Source: Acidithiobacillus sp. HP-2 (lineage in GTDB: Bacteria; Pseudomonadota; Gammaproteobacteria; Acidithiobacillales; Acidithiobacillaceae). From it: 64,000 bases of DNA. A program made the position numbers and the translations under genes. Below the pieces are notes generated by a model, which made no database searches, was not told where the DNA came from, and worked only from the letters and a program-made list of their open reading frames with translations. Shown here piece after piece: positions 1 through 64,000 of this stretch (the first letter of the stretch is position 1; the number at the start of each line of letters is the position of its first letter). The DNA is taken from the NCBI RefSeq assembly GCF_015100155.1, contig NZ_JACKZA010000001.1, positions 186,001-250,000 of the forward strand, read 5' to 3'.

Positions 1-342
<342 letters not shown>

Positions 343-58363: not shown

Positions 58364-58571
58364 TTAAACTGAAAACGGCAGTTGCCGTGGGAGCTTTGCA
58401 GCGACTTTTGTTCCGCGCCGTTGTTGTTCTTGGCGAAATCCAGCGCCCGTCAGGAGAGCTGTCTGAGCCCGCAGGGCGAGTTCTCTCCTGACAGCAAGAT
58501 GAACCTCAGAACAACAGGCAAGGAACAATGGAGCAAAAAGCACCCACGGCAACTGCCATTTTTAGATTTAA
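58364..58571. repeat. 208-bp imperfect palindrome (possible MITE or structured RNA)
   Basis: The two halves pair around about 58468. Outer arms: TTAAACTGAAAACGGCAG with the complement of the 58552-58571 end, and GGCAGTTGCCGTGGG (58377-58391) with its mirror at 58541-58555. Middle arms share GTTGTTCT and TTGTTCC. The core GTCAGGAGAG (58449-58458) pairs with CTCTCCTGAC (58483-58492) and encloses GCCC-GCA-GGGC. The tips themselves contain CGGCA-GT-TGCCG. No ORF fits. It lies between the motD stop and the cheY sigma-54 promoter. Confidence 0.75.
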
Positions 58572-58710: not shown

Positions 58711-59127
58711 ATGGGTATTGATCAGGTCGATAAGGGCATCCACATTTTAGTGGTGGATGACTTCTCTACGATGCGGCGAATTGTACGCAATTTGTTACGC
58801 GAACTCGGTTTCAGTAATTTTGATGAAGCCGAGGATGGCGTTCAGGCATTACAAAAATTGCACGGCAGACCCTTTGATTTCGTCGTTTCCGACTGGAACA
58901 TGCCCAATATGCAGGGAATTGATCTGCTGCGCGCCATCCGCTCAGACCCGCAACTCAAACATATTCCGGTACTCATGGTCACCGCTGAGGCCAAACGCGA
59001 AAACATCCTGGAAGCGGCCCAGGCTGGAGTCAACGGCTACATCGTCAAGCCTTTTACTGCCGACACCCTGAAAGAAAAGCTGGATAGCGTGTTCAAGCGT
59101 CTTCAGGCGGCTCAGGGAGGCCAGTGA
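58711..59127 (+). CDS. cheY: Chemotaxis response regulator CheY
   Basis: A 138-residue single receiver: acidic pair in [18 protein letters not shown], phosphoacceptor in [12 protein letters not shown] (Asp about 61), Thr in [13 protein letters not shown] and Lys in GYIVKPFTA. CheY-P binds the FliM N-terminus to switch rotation. AAGGAGG upstream fixes ATG 58711. cheZ starts inside its stop (TGATG). Confidence 0.96.
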
Positions 59128-59618
59128 TGACCACACAAAATCTACTGGATCCCAATCGTCTGCTCAGTGAAGCGGAGTTACTGCTGCGTGAAGGCCTGAA
59201 GCGGATCGCCAATAGCGCCGAAGAAAATTTGTCCGGTGCACAAAATCCTCTGGAAGAAGCCCTGCGCTTAACCGAAGAGCAGACCATGGCCACTCTCGCC
59301 GCTGTCGAAAGAGCGCAGGATGCGGTAATCACCATTCGTAATGCGCACAATAGCTATATTGATGAGCCCTTGAAGCATATTGAAAGCGCCTTGCTCGTGA
59401 TTCTGGCCAGCCAACAGGGGCAGGATCTTGCCGGTCAACGCTTGAAAAAAGCCATCACACTGCTTCGGGCTGTTGAAGAACGTATACGCCTTACCTTGGC
59501 TGAAGTAGGTATGGAATCAGCCAACAATATCGCAGAGGAAAACACCGCAACCGCCAAGGCCAATCCCAGCATTAATCAGGATGAAGTGGATAGCTTGCTG
59601 GCAGAGCTGGGGATCTAA
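59127..59618 (+). CDS. cheZ: CheY-P phosphatase CheZ
   Basis: A 163-residue protein, shorter than E. coli CheZ (214) but with the catalytic segment SQQGQDLAGQRLKKAITLLR (Gln equivalent to E. coli Gln147) and a C-terminal CheY-tethering peptide DEVDSLLAELGI. The long helical hairpin is intact. ATG 59127 overlaps the cheY stop and is preceded by GGGAGG. Confidence 0.93.
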   Translation: MTTQNLLDPNRLLSEAELLLREGLKRIANSAEENLSGAQNPLEEALRLTEEQTMATLAAVERAQDAVITIRNAHNSYIDEPLKHIESALLVILASQQGQDLAGQRLKKAITLLRAVEERIRLTLAEVGMESANNIAEENTATAKANPSINQDEVDSLLAELGI

Positions 59619-59622
59619 AAAC

Positions 59623-61722
59623 ATGGACATGGAAATTCTGCAGGATTACTTGCCGGAAGCTCGGGAACTCCTCGAAAAAGCTCAGGACGACACCCTGCGT
59701 CTGGAATCCGATCCGAACAATGATGAAGTGCTCGCCTCCGTATTCCGGGCTTTTCATACACTCAAAGGGGGAGCCGGTTTTCTCGAAGCCGAGCATCTCG
59801 TCAGTTGGACCCATCATCTGGAAGACCTGCTGGACAAACTTCGCTCACACAGCTTGATCGTTAGCGGACCCATGATCGATGCTATCCTGCGCGGTCTTGA
59901 TGTGATTGATGACATGCTGCAACAACTTGCCAGCGGAGAAAATCCCAGTCCAGGACCAGAACAACTAGGCCAGACCATTCAGAATCTGGCGTTAGGCAAA
60001 GGACCCATGGAAAGCGCAGCGCCTCCTTGCAGCCGCCCACCTGCAGAATCCATGTTGTTGGTCAGCCAGCGACCAACAGCTACCGGTGAATCGGGACTGT
60101 TCCTGGAACACTCTGAATCAGCACCTCACCCGGAATCACAGAGCAATCCATCCGGCCCACACAGCGAAATGGCAGCCGACGAAATTACCGGCGCAGAGTT
60201 TGAGGCCACTCTCGACGCCCTGTATGGTAACAAGGCTCCGGGGATGTGCGATGGACCGGATTCCGGCAACCAGAACAGTGGCCAAATTTCGCCAGAAGAG
60301 TTTGAGCAGGTACTGGATCAACTCTACGGCCAGCAAGCTCCAGGTTATGTCCAGCCAGCGCTTGGCTCAGCCGTTTGTGCAAGTTCGTTAGAATCAGAAC
60401 AAGTCACTGCTGAGCTTGTTCTGCCAACAAAATCGGTCCGTACAGAAACTGTCCAACCCCGGGAAGCTTCAGGCAAGGCAACACCACCTGCGCGCAGTAG
60501 CGCCACCGCACAGGAAGCAGCCGAAACCACCCTACGCGTTGATGCCGCCCGACTGGACGCCGTAATGAATCAGGTGGGTGAACTGGTTTTGCTCCGTAAC
60601 CGACTGAGCTCTGCCATCGGCAGCCTGGGCGAAGAAAATGAAGACATGCTGCGCATCGCCCGAGAGGTCGACCTCACCGTCAACGACATTCAAAGCACCG
60701 TCATGCGTTTGCGCATGCAACCCTGCAAGCGTCTGTTTCAGCAGTTGCCCAGAGTAGTCCGGGATGCTTCCCGGCAACTCGGCAAAGAAGTTGCGCTCGA
60801 AATTGTGGGCGAAGACGTGGAAATCGACAAAGCAGTGGTCGATGCGCTGTCTGGTCCAATGACCCATTTGCTCCGCAACAGTCTCGACCATGGCGTTGAG
60901 TTACCCGCAGATCGCCAGGCCGCAGGGAAGGCGCGCAGTGCCAAAATCAGTGTTGCTGCTGTCCATTTGGGCGATAAGGTTCGCATTGAAGTCTCCGATG
61001 ACGGGCGCGGCATTGATAGTCAGTTTGTCACCCGGAAAGCGGTAGATAAGGGGGTCATCACTGCTGAGCAGGCGGCTCGCCTCTCGGAACAGGAAGCGGT
61101 TGAACTGATTTTCCGCCCCGGATTTTCTACCAATGATCAGGTTACCGATATCTCCGGACGTGGTGTCGGCATGGATGTGGTCAAGGAAACCGTTCGCAAG
61201 CTGCGCGGGCGCCTGGACATTCAGACTAAACCAGGTTTAGGTACGAGTATTTCCATGGAGTTTCCTTTGACCATGGCGGTATTACCCGTGCTTTACCTCC
61301 GTTTGCGGCGGGAAATCTACGCTCTGCCGGTATCCAGTATTGACAGTCTGGTGGACATACAGGAAAGCCGGATTCATCGCATGAGTGGTCGCAGTGTCTA
61401 TCGGGTAGACGGTACTGAAGTCATCCCCATGGTAGATCTCGGCAGGCTTCTTCATGATCGCCCCCTCCATTTGGGATCAGAACCTATAGAGGGAATATTG
61501 ACAGAGCGTGGCTTGATTATGGTTTCTGAAGTGCTCGGGAACGAGGACTCTGTGGTCAAACCCATTGATTTCCTGACTGAACAGAACTGGTATCAGGGCG
61601 CTACCATTTCCGGAAAGGGAGATGTGGTGCTGATTCTTGATGCCGGCACACTGGCTAACCATGTGATTGATCATGGCGATGATTCGACCATCATGGATAT
61701 TTTCTGCAAAGGAGCCGCCTGA
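59623..61722 (+). CDS. cheA: Chemotaxis histidine kinase CheA
   Basis: A 699-residue kinase. P1 domain with FRAFHTLKGGAGF (phosphorylated His about 45). A long linker (130-300) contains a duplicated motif, EFEATLDALYGNKAPG (about 187) and EFEQVLDQLYGQQAPG (about 224). P3 dimerisation from TLRVDAARLDAVMNQVGELV, P4 kinase with LLRNSLDHGVELP, DDGRGID and GRGVGMDVV, and a CheW-like P5 domain at the end. The start at 59623 (MDMEILQDYLPEAREL) is typical. The next gene begins in its stop codon. Confidence 0.97.
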   Translation: MDMEILQDYLPEARELLEKAQDDTLRLESDPNNDEVLASVFRAFHTLKGGAGFLEAEHLVSWTHHLEDLLDKLRSHSLIVSGPMIDAILRGLDVIDDMLQQLASGENPSPGPEQLGQTIQNLALGKGPMESAAPPCSRPPAESMLLVSQRPTATGESGLFLEHSESAPHPESQSNPSGPHSEMAADEITGAEFEATLDALYGNKAPGMCDGPDSGNQNSGQISPEEFEQVLDQLYGQQAPGYVQPALGSAVCASSLESEQVTAELVLPTKSVRTETVQPREASGKATPPARSSATAQEAAETTLRVDAARLDAVMNQVGELVLLRNRLSSAIGSLGEENEDMLRIAREVDLTVNDIQSTVMRLRMQPCKRLFQQLPRVVRDASRQLGKEVALEIVGEDVEIDKAVVDALSGPMTHLLRNSLDHGVELPADRQAAGKARSAKISVAAVHLGDKVRIEVSDDGRGIDSQFVTRKAVDKGVITAEQAARLSEQEAVELIFRPGFSTNDQVTDISGRGVGMDVVKETVRKLRGRLDIQTKPGLGTSISMEFPLTMAVLPVLYLRLRREIYALPVSSIDSLVDIQESRIHRMSGRSVYRVDGTEVIPMVDLGRLLHDRPLHLGSEPIEGILTERGLIMVSEVLGNEDSVVKPIDFLTEQNWYQGATISGKGDVVLILDAGTLANHVIDHGDDSTIMDIFCKGAA

Positions 61723-62342
61723 TGGATATTCAGCACATCATGGGGGTCGTCGATGCGTCCTTTGCGGCAAGGCAAAGTATCGAAAAGGCATTGCGTGATA
61801 TTGATCGGCGCGCACTCAATGCCATGGTTCTGGTTAAACGTCATGGTAATGCCCTGGCTGGTTATGGTGTAGTAGCCCAGGCCTTCCGGGAAAGAGCGGC
61901 CATTTTAAAGACATCAGCCTCCCATCTTCAGGAAAGTATCGCGCCACTCATTGAAGCTTATATGCGTATTTTGCAGCATCAGCGCTTTGTTCAATCATTC
62001 CAGGAAATGCTCAGTGACAGCCCGCTGCATGGCAAGGCTTGTCCCAACCTGATCAGCACCCAGTCCAAATGGCAAACAACCATCCATGAAGAGGAAGCCA
62101 CCGCCAGAAAAATTCTGGTCCAGTTACTGGAAGCCGTACAAACGCTTCAGGAAGGCGTTGAAGAACAGGAATACATCGTCACCAACGGCCGAATCGAAGC
62201 GGCCCTTGCAGAAAGTACCGGAGCCCCGCTGATGCGGGTTTCCCGGGATATGGGCGAAGCCGTCCGCACCGTCGCGCAGGCGATTCGTAGCTATCGCCAT
62301 CAACTGGAGAGTCTGGAACATGAAAGCAGCACCCGTCTTTGA
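61722..62342 (+). CDS. Unknown helical protein with a degenerate chemoreceptor-tip-like segment
   Basis: A 206-residue all-helical, soluble protein. I know no named family. Its C-terminal third reads YIVTNGRIEAALAESTGAP followed by LMRVSRDMGEAVRTV. Aligned to the chemoreceptor hairpin tip ([19 protein letters not shown]...VVADEVR), it keeps the N-x-x-IEAA-x-A spacing, the turn Gly and later Val/Arg positions, and the preceding helix shares a QT...E pattern. It is coupled to cheA (TGATG) and overlaps the ODP gene by 23 bases. It may be a small CheA-binding adaptor between ODP and CheA; this is inference. Confidence 0.5.
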   Translation: MDIQHIMGVVDASFAARQSIEKALRDIDRRALNAMVLVKRHGNALAGYGVVAQAFRERAAILKTSASHLQESIAPLIEAYMRILQHQRFVQSFQEMLSDSPLHGKACPNLISTQSKWQTTIHEEEATARKILVQLLEAVQTLQEGVEEQEYIVTNGRIEAALAESTGAPLMRVSRDMGEAVRTVAQAIRSYRHQLESLEHESSTRL

Positions 62343-63069
62343 AGCAGGCAGCCATCGCTGGTGGATCATTTATGATCAGGACGAACATCGGGTTATTGAT
62401 TCCAATGTTTACGTCATGGAGTCGAAGGGACAAAGCATCATCCTTGATCCGGGAGGATTTGAGATTTTCCCCCAGGTATTTGCAGCCATGGTGGAGGTCA
62501 TTCCGCCTTCCAGCCTGAAAGCAGCCTTTGTTTCACATCAGGACCCCGATATTGCTTCCAGCTTGCCGCTTTGGCATGCCTGTAACGATAAAATGGAATG
62601 GTACGTTCCCAAGCTATGGGAAGGTTTTATTCGTCATTATGGTGCGCTCAATGCACCGCTGCAAAACATTTCAGATGAAGGCGGGGAGGTGATGATTGGA
62701 GGGCGGCGGCTGGAATTTATACCGGCTCACTACCTGCATTCTTCAGCCAATTTTCATGTTTATGACCCAGAAGCTAAAATCCTGTTTTCCGGTGATGTGG
62801 GTGCCGCATTATTACCCCCCGGCCATGACGCCTGGGTAGATCGACGCGATAACACCGGTCGCGCTTTTGAAGAACATATCAAAAAAGCCAAATATTTTCA
62901 TGAACGCTGGATGCCTTCCAATGCCGCCAAGAAAAACTGGATAGAGCGGGTGAGTCAATTGGATATACAACATCTCTGCCCTCAGCATGGGGCTATTTAT
63001 AGTGGTGACAACGTTAAGCGTTTTCTGGACTGGTTCGACAAAATCAATGTTGGCACGGCCATCATCTAA
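62320..63069 (+). CDS. Di-iron oxygen-binding protein (ODP), metallo-beta-lactamase fold
   Basis: A 249-residue protein of the flavodiiron-type MBL fold without a flavodoxin domain. Metal ligands appear in FVSHQDPDIASSL (H-x-D-x-D), HYLHSSANFHVYD (His), ILFSGDVG (Asp) and LCPQHGAIYSG (His). The IDSNVYVMES start and CPQHG end are those of ODP, the di-iron protein that in Treponema denticola acts as an O2/Fe(II) sensor for CheA-based chemotaxis. The FDP glutamate ligand position (HxExD) is Asp here, as far as I can see. It overlaps the preceding gene and is followed after 21 bases by a receptor. Confidence 0.82.
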   Translation: MKAAPVFEAGSHRWWIIYDQDEHRVIDSNVYVMESKGQSIILDPGGFEIFPQVFAAMVEVIPPSSLKAAFVSHQDPDIASSLPLWHACNDKMEWYVPKLWEGFIRHYGALNAPLQNISDEGGEVMIGGRRLEFIPAHYLHSSANFHVYDPEAKILFSGDVGAALLPPGHDAWVDRRDNTGRAFEEHIKKAKYFHERWMPSNAAKKNWIERVSQLDIQHLCPQHGAIYSGDNVKRFLDWFDKINVGTAII

Positions 63070-63090
63070 TAATCAGCGGAGGAAAAAATT

Positions 63091-64000
63091 ATGGATAGAA
63101 TAGCACTCGAAGAATATGCGAAATCACTTTTGGATCCCTTACCTAGCCTGGAAATGCTCTGTGAAGCGGATGAGGCCATGGAAAATGTCATTTTTTACAT
63201 GAATCCCGCAGCGCTAAGTATCATGAATTTTCATCATCAAAAATTAAATCCTCTATTACGCGGCGCAGATGTGCGCAACGCCCTGCATTACTCCATTCAT
63301 CAATTTCATAAAGATCCGGAACGGATTCGCAATATCTTTAGGGAGTTAGCTAAGGGAAACATCAAGCAACATCAAGCAGAGCTAAAACTGGGAAAAATTG
63401 TTTTTGGGTTAAATTTTACTTTGTTACGCGACACTTCCGGGTCGCCTATTGCCTATCATGCCAGCTGGCAGGACCTGAGCGATCAGCGTCGTGTTGACGA
63501 ACTATCAACAAGCAGTTCCAGAAATGCCAACGACAACGCGCAAACCCTCTCCCGCACTACGGCCGAAGTGGACGAAGCCATGGAGACCGTCAATAAAAAT
63601 CTGATTTTGCTGGAAAAAACCAGCGAAGAAAACCATCAGGCCACTGCATCACTCACGGGTCAGGTGGTCGCTATCAGTCGAATTGCCCAGACCATTCGTG
63701 AAATAGCCTATCAAACCAATCTTCTGGCACTGAATGCGGCCATTGAAGCCGCTCGTGCCGGAGAGCATGGCCGAGGCTTTGCGGTAGTTGCAGACGAAGT
63801 GCGCAATCTCTCCAAACGCGTACAGGAAGCCACTGACGAGGTTCAAAATAACATTTCAAGGATCACTGCAACTGCCCAAAATATTGATACCGTTGCACAG
63901 AAAAATCAGCATCAGGCCCAACAATCCATGGATGTTACCCAAAATTTGCGCAAGGAAATAAAAAGCCTTCGCACGCTGGCACTTTTCATGTCTCTGAACG
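63091..64000 (+). CDS. Soluble PAS-type chemoreceptor (partial)
   Basis: The frame opens at ATG 63091 behind GGAGGAAAAAATT and runs off the window after 303 residues. An N-terminal PAS-like domain (about 10-140; [13 protein letters not shown], then [17 protein letters not shown]) precedes a receptor signalling hairpin with the tip [40 protein letters not shown]. No transmembrane segment or HAMP domain is present, so it is cytosolic. Placed directly after ODP, it is the candidate receptor that reads ODP state into the CheA array. Only a short stretch past the tip is visible, so the C-terminus is unknown. Confidence 0.92.

Follow-up and report, generated by a model that had tools for sequence, protein, structure and literature searches.

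A doubled receptor-tip-like protein accompanies an ODP-family protein in the only chemosensory operon found in the draft genome of Acidithiobacillus sp. HP-2

The right end of a 64,000-nucleotide stretch of Acidithiobacillus sp. HP-2 DNA (hereafter the window; bases 186001-250000 of contig NZ_JACKZA010000001.1) carries a chemotaxis operon in the order cheY-cheZ-cheA-X206-ODP-receptor, which continues, when the contig is read on beyond the window end, with cheV and a second soluble receptor gene. ODP belongs to a family of oxygen-binding di-iron proteins. X206, a protein of 206 amino acids encoded between CheA and ODP, resembles, to judge from profile alignments and predicted models, a dimer of receptor tips joined in a single chain. 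No chemosensory system besides this operon was found in the draft genome (3.2 Mb in 48 contigs, 100% estimated complete). It is rather likely that it encodes a cytosolic chemosensory system run by the internal state of the cell, in which ODP is the sensor and X206 a fused tip signalling to CheA. More tentatively, X206 and ODP might constitute a transferable two-gene O2/iron receptor, consisting of a single-chain tip and an unfused di-iron sensor, that has spread through Beta- and Gammaproteobacteria and here forms the core of a complete system without membrane receptors, stand-alone CheW and methylation.

Both halves of X206 match the signalling tip of methyl-accepting chemotaxis proteins (MCPs). 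In hhalign comparisons with a profile of 56 MCP tips, half 1 (residues 1-103) reached a probability of 98 with a score of 73.2 (single-comparison E 1.7e-13) and half 2 (residues 104-206) a probability of 95 with a score of 44.5 (single-comparison E 4.3e-8). The two halves align to the same columns of the profile, namely as two tip stretches in register, which bears out the description of an MCP-tip-like protein in a first-pass annotation of this DNA. When half 2 was reversed, the score fell to 18.7, and 30 column shuffles gave 13.2 or less. The top PDB match of the X family profile is the soluble receptor of Thermotoga maritima (3g6b/3g67; E 3.3e-15). The MCP domain (PF00015) is matched at E <= 0.01 by 40 of the 61 family members aligned, which are the window sequence and 60 of the 73 frames upstream of ODP (that of L091 being shortened in frame). 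AlphaFold2 models of X206 and of a family member from a Dechloromonas metagenome-assembled genome (MAG), 23% identical to X206, have mean predicted local distance difference test values of 93.5 and 92.9. In structural alignments with a designed one-chain four-helix bundle (5vju), 176 residues of the former model are matched at 2.3 Å and 173 of the latter at 2.1 Å. The best structural Z is 16.8; since helical models typically reach about 14, this value is taken for topology, not kinship.

Several observations weigh against this view of X206. The two halves align to each other with a probability of only 61 (score 26.2, versus 12.8 for the reversed sequence), and X206 of the window scores 12.6 bits with Pfam MCPsignal (PF00015), for which the cut-off is 34.6. 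The usual IEAA stretch is without its glutamate in tip 1, and tip 2 is weak in single sequences: of 74 sequences, which include a wrong frame from L120, 7 have a domain E below 0.01 for tip 2 and 67 for tip 1. Residues 3-99 of the model form an unbroken helix according to DSSP, and therefore the first turn is deduced from the bundle alignment, while Foldseek gave no match to the X206 model at E <= 0.001.

The T. maritima receptor resembles X206 in being cytosolic and of similar size (213 amino acids) with an MCP tip. Its known form is one long hairpin carrying the tip in mid-chain, whereas in X206 tip stretches occur twice, around residues 42 and 165. A single long hairpin was considered for X206 as well and was rejected, because the model has a TM-score of 0.34 to 3g67, with no superposition, and aligns to four-helix bundles instead. 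Soluble natural single-chain chemoreceptors are mentioned in one report, where they are placed 'in numerous genomes', R. centenum being a source named, and their roles are called unknown, and an engineered single-chain Tsr~Tsr is described there as signalling (PMC4692393). They would share with X206 the presence of two receptor tips per polypeptide, whereas X206 is short and strongly diverged, and has ODP as a constant gene partner. In a Methylophagaceae-labelled MAG (L156, 8325-9011), both tips of the X protein remain similar to ordinary MCP tips (E 3.9e-8 and 2.8e-5), and this protein is possibly an intermediate.

The association of X206 with ODP is not confined to this genome. Contigs were scanned with che-type ODPs, and the best 80 of at least 467 relatives were kept, a set that samples the nearest relatives rather than the whole group. 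In 79 of these 80 loci, the gene immediately upstream of ODP is X206-like. It is detected in 77 by an X family hidden Markov model (HMM) built partly from the same rows it counted, and in 73 by an MCP-tip HMM or an Acidithiobacillia-X HMM, the latter having at least three genomes in common with the 80 rows. Two further upstream X genes were found by tblastn (L154) and as a partial gene at a contig end (L105), and at the sole locus without one (L137) the contig begins 736 bases upstream of ODP. The X family HMM gave no match at 17 distinct non-che ODP loci, whose ODPs are 33-37% identical to that of the window and several of which are only 3-3.6 kb long. Thus X206, which had been called a new partner at this locus, is a widespread companion of che-type ODPs.

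In the flanking DNA of the 80 loci, core che genes are present in 27, an MCP alone in 3 and neither in 50 (15, 2 and 28, respectively, in the subset of 45 loci whose flanks are 5 kb or longer on both sides); the 50 loci without che genes speak against the proposed chemosensory role, and the pair therefore often stands alone, like an orphan receptor. Of the refuting condition named in the first-pass annotation, namely ODP homologues that act only as oxidoreductases and have no che genes nearby, the absence of che genes thus applies to 50 of the 80 che-type loci, but the receptor-tip companion is kept in 79 of the 80. The pair is found between CheW and CheR in a member of the same order as the host (L045) and inside the che cluster of a Gallionella MAG (L160). 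A CheA-type domain is present in all 38 genomes examined in which the pair stands apart from any che cluster (a hand-picked set, neither independent nor random, made up of 34 of the 50 without che genes, the 3 that have only an MCP nearby, and L156, with a CheB match), as compared with 147 of 199 genomes drawn evenly from the phylum. In three Rhodocyclales loci scanned, the pair is directly followed by a gene for hemerythrin, another kind of O2-binding protein (L109 9794-11774, L131 9735-10250 and L139 9755-11828); in L109 and L139 a protein of about 431-433 amino acids without a Pfam match also follows.

Within the family set of 29 genomes (G000-G028, G000 being that of the window), X206 and ODP lie in the che operon of 22, so that the layout is not a product of chance. 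Genomes that appear to be present twice were counted once in the family counts (L057/L084, L059/L085, L060/L087, L061/L086, L064/L088, L067/L090 and L070/L089), and L010 and L069 are one place. As to the remaining seven, the contig breaks at the site in G027, only another kind of ODP is present in G011, G014, G018, G023 and G028, and G025 has no ODP. A receptor occupies the place of the downstream soluble receptor of the window, MCP1, in 18 of the 22 operon genomes, and in 7 of the 22 MCP1 is incomplete or missing altogether. G005 (L059) has no MCP1, G002 and G007 (L063, L064) have a 58-residue piece and G012 (L066) a 77-residue trace, and in G001, G004 and G010 (loci L036, of G004, L038 and L073) MCP1 is devoid of its first 134 residues; X206 and ODP are kept in all of these. 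MCP1 is also absent from one (L040) of the two operon copies of G021, and no MCP directly follows ODP in loci L102-L163. Judged from these gene neighbourhoods, X206 and ODP are the constant core and MCP1 is not a constant partner of ODP; the soluble receptor that had been included in the proposed unit does lie downstream of ODP here. The cheA-X-ODP operon is doubled in two family members, G021 (L039/L040) and G026 (L043/L044). A 570-residue frame in G017 was considered as an ODP-MCP1 fusion and discarded, since the ODP match is in another frame and the long frame is a spurious extension. In G023, in which no che-type ODP was found, a receptor 56% identical to the second soluble receptor of the host, MCP2, is kept (L165 4482-5819).

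The genome of the window contains two MCP domains, both in the ODP operon, and two CheW domains, in CheA and CheV, and no stand-alone CheW was found. It has one CheA, on the basis of a single H-kinase_dim match, and no CheR match at E <= 0.001, and its CheB is a remnant with a stop (minus strand, window 1-272; L077 9934-10342). In comparison with G010 (90-92% DNA identity), 8.1 kb is gone at window positions 273/276 (L077 10273/10276). By Pfam matches, the missing stretch in G010 encodes a 308-residue soluble MCP, CheY, a STAS protein, a second CheA, a HAMP-bearing receptor, CheW, CheR, CheD and the first part of CheB, and such a second chemosensory cluster is present in the relatives L078 and L080. 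The alignment indicates that the deletion removed this cluster from the genome of the window; a further gap of 2.4 kb lies in the adjacent gene, which encodes GGDEF/EAL domains in a relative. The tight coupling of ODP to cheA noted in the first-pass annotation is borne out, and the idea put forward there of a chemosensory unit with a built-in sensor is strengthened beyond what was claimed, as no other chemosensory system was found in the genome. A strong CheR match over the cut-off occurs in 11 family genomes, all with the ODP operon, and the other 11 operon genomes, two of which (G007, G020) are less than 90% complete, have none over the cut-off; members of the family can thus do without the methylation module, whereas they retain the ODP unit. 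Some CheR-less genomes have further MCPs (for example 5 matches in G013, 5 in G017 and 6 in G021), and it is in the genome of the window that the remaining receptors are seen to be lost too.

ODP of the window matches PF19583 with 229.1 bits, far over the curated cut-off of 27.2, and among solved structures it is closest to the oxygen-binding di-iron proteins 6qrq (1.3e-59) and 6qnm (5.4e-44), the Treponema and Thermotoga ODPs. Residues H73, D75, D77, H137, H140, D159 and H223 are invariant among 13 aligned ODPs, occupy positions shared with these two and, from the fold, are candidate metal ligands. The homology to solved di-iron sensors that had been proposed is thereby corroborated, and by analogy the protein would bind iron and O2 as a stable peroxo species. 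Its Pfam matches are ODP and Lactamase_B only, and no flavodoxin (FMN) domain is found in its 249 residues. The closest named ODP among the matches listed, 92% identical, is that of A. montserratensis. In a tree in which 54 of 89 rows fell in no group, the cheA-linked ODPs, whose sources are Acidithiobacillus, Thiomonas, Tibeticola and MAGs, group together (support 99/100), and four non-che ODPs, two of them from the genome of the window, separate with 100/100. In G004, a single-contig genome, the che-linked ODP is frame-broken (L036 7833-8351), by decay or sequencing error, which is a point against the role proposed for it. The two further ODPs of the host lie away from che genes, and one of them is encoded between a protoglobin and a 121-residue protein without a Pfam match (L034 5957-7774). 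ODPs of a second kind, which share 33-34% identity with that of the window, are encoded at L035 (7336-8504) and L042 (5852-6990), each followed by an overlapping gene for a Roadblock/LC7 protein of about 114-125 residues; from this arrangement, ODP and Roadblock/LC7 appear to be a gene pair.

In the proposed mechanism, ODP would take up iron and O2 in the cytosol, as is reported for the Treponema protein, and X206, with its two fused hairpins, would dock on CheA and CheV as a receptor dimer would and pass the state of ODP to CheA. From the gene content, MCP1 and MCP2 would signal to the same CheA via CheV. CheA would then set the level of CheY-P and CheZ remove it, as in the established pathway to the flagellar motor. 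Because no CheR, intact CheB or membrane receptor was found, adaptation, if any, would have to depend on phosphorylation of CheV or on the sensor's own chemistry, in contrast to chemotaxis systems that adapt by methylation. Ligand binding, the contacts of X206 with CheA and with ODP, and the direction of the response are predicted parts of this scheme, for which gene content, synteny, the deletion and family relations, as read from the sequences, provide the frame.

The nearest known system is that of Treponema denticola, whose ODP is described in one report as an O2 sensor of chemotaxis, genetically coupled to a receptor that has neither membrane nor sensing modules and can modulate CheA (PMC7666581). 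The T. denticola pair, ODP TDE2498 and receptor TDE2496, resembles the present one in that the ODPs are of one family and conserve the same ligand positions, that a neighbouring receptor has no membrane or sensing part, and that there is a single CheA. Here, in contrast, the partner of ODP is a putative doubled-tip protein, the genes belong to a cheYZA flagellar operon, membrane receptors were not found, and CheV and CZB receptors belong to the set. Receptors coupled to ODP are said to occur in eight phyla, with an effect on CheA-P, in work by Muok from 2019.

Alternatively, ODP might be an O2- or NO-reducing scavenger of the flavodiiron type merely carried in the operon, with X206 as an electron-transfer or scaffold partner. 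ODP and flavodiiron proteins have the di-iron domain of metallo-beta-lactamase fold in common; the two other ODPs of the host, away from che genes and one by protoglobin, would suit such an enzyme, as would the presence of ODP in four genomes without an MCP match (G011, G014, G018 and G028, the last 61% complete), and the hemerythrin genes in Rhodocyclales also fit detoxification. However, che-linked ODP lacks the flavodoxin domain of flavodiiron proteins, the ODPs that the MCP-less genomes contain belong to the other type (33-35% identical, no X), four such non-che ODPs form their own branch, and che-type ODPs are accompanied by a receptor-tip protein in genomes that, wherever examined, have a CheA-type domain. 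An enzyme of this sort seems unlikely.

Two other explanations leave ODP as a sensor and give X206 a different part. ODP may signal to the downstream PAS/CZB receptor MCP1, X206 being an accessory or decaying receptor, as its degeneracy as a receptor tip and the frequent occupation of the MCP1 place would allow. This is quite unlikely, given that X206 and ODP are retained where MCP1 is lost, fragmentary or shortened, and that loci L102-L163 have no MCP directly after ODP. X206 might otherwise be a competitor, namely a tip mimic that plugs CheA/CheV sites of the array until released by ODP and so tunes array assembly. The half-degenerate tips are in keeping with this, and so is the altered ordering of CheA in arrays upon deletion of T. 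denticola ODP, as reported in PMC7666581, although a receptor would account at least equally well for the wide spread of X206 and ODP as a unit; competition is regarded as improbable. A fused tip that relays the state of ODP to CheA is preferred to all three.

As for the stimulus, CZB domains point to zinc or redox state, and ODP, by analogy with its solved relatives, would point to cytosolic O2 and iron. Rusticyanin, the single marker of iron oxidation used, has no match in the host; it is present in 5 of 15 same-genus genomes with the operon and absent in the host and 9 others, and G011 and G014 have rusticyanin and no MCP match. These counts thus give no support to a link with iron oxidation, which the first-pass annotation suggested in case the host were an Fe(II) oxidizer; steering by O2 or redox state is the likelier use. 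Such steering would be relevant to bioleaching and acid-mine bacteria. The genome offers a minimal CheR-free pathway without membrane receptors, made by a visible deletion, and is a good system for questions of adaptation. X206 represents a large putative single-chain-tip family with a constant partner of described cofactor chemistry, and thus its function is directly testable. In the figure legend of a published Acidithiobacillus chemotaxis cluster, a 'flavoprotein' gene is numbered between CheV and CheA (PMC5468388), and this gene is probably the ODP of the che operon. Among the publication titles listed, none concerns ODP in Acidithiobacillus or the X-ODP pair.

The gene set and coordinates given earlier for the right end of the window hold (Table 1), while the start/stop coupling ascribed to all genes from cheY to ODP holds in part. 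cheY and cheZ overlap at 59124-59127, the TGA of cheA (61720-61722) has one base in common with the ATG of X206, and X206 extends 23 bases into ODP (ODP ATG at 62320, X206 stop ending at 62342), but 4 bases separate the end of cheZ (59618) from the ATG of cheA (59623), unless the upstream ATG at 59581 is used. The spacing of 21 bases between the end of ODP (63069) and the ATG of MCP1 (63091) is as described. The open frame of cheY begins at 58528, and the start within it given in the table is the analyst's choice. The cheV product has CheW and receiver domains, and MCP2, the second soluble CZB receptor, is encoded downstream of it. The CZB domain follows the MCP domain in both receptors (42.5 bits in MCP1 and 41.6 in MCP2; cut-off 29.4). 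No strongly hydrophobic segment is found in MCP1, MCP2, X206 or ODP, with 19-residue Kyte-Doolittle maxima of 0.84-1.45 (0.91 for MCP1) in comparison with 2.36 for the membrane receptor of a relative. MCP1, which had been termed a cytosolic PAS receptor, is accordingly soluble, but its PAS domain is weak (PAS_4, E 0.021; 15.5 bits, below the cut-off of 23.1).

Table 1. Chemotaxis features of the window, with positions counted from its first base.
Feature	Position	Strand	Evidence or remark
cheY, response regulator	58726..59127	+	NCBIfam CheY equivalog 2.3e-60, open-frame residues 67-192
cheZ, CheY-P phosphatase	59124..59618	+	Pfam CheZ 7.3e-10
cheA	59623..61722	+	domains Hpt, H-kinase_dim, HATPase_c, CheW
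X206, putative single-chain doubled receptor-tip protein, ODP companion	61722..62342	+	hhalign per half, PDB profile match, AlphaFold2 model, adjoins ODP in 79/80 loci
X206 tip motif 1, residues 31-57	61812..61892	+	N33 invariant; A34, G42, G47 nearly so (61 X sequences); hhalign half 1
X206 tip motif 2, residues 155-178	62184..62255	+	E159, L170 nearly invariant (61 sequences); hhalign half 2
ODP, candidate di-iron O2/Fe(II) sensor, 249 aa	62320..63069	+	PF19583 5.4e-68; PDB 6qrq, 6qnm
MCP1, soluble receptor, 416 aa	63091..64000, 341 bases more past window end	+	weak PAS-like N-terminus, MCP signalling domain, CZB
cheB remnant, 3' part, extends left of window	1..272	-	beside 8.1-kb deletion scar

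Apart from the chemotaxis genes, a 342-residue protein without a Pfam match is encoded at L003 (17018-18043), adjoining a queC-like gene.

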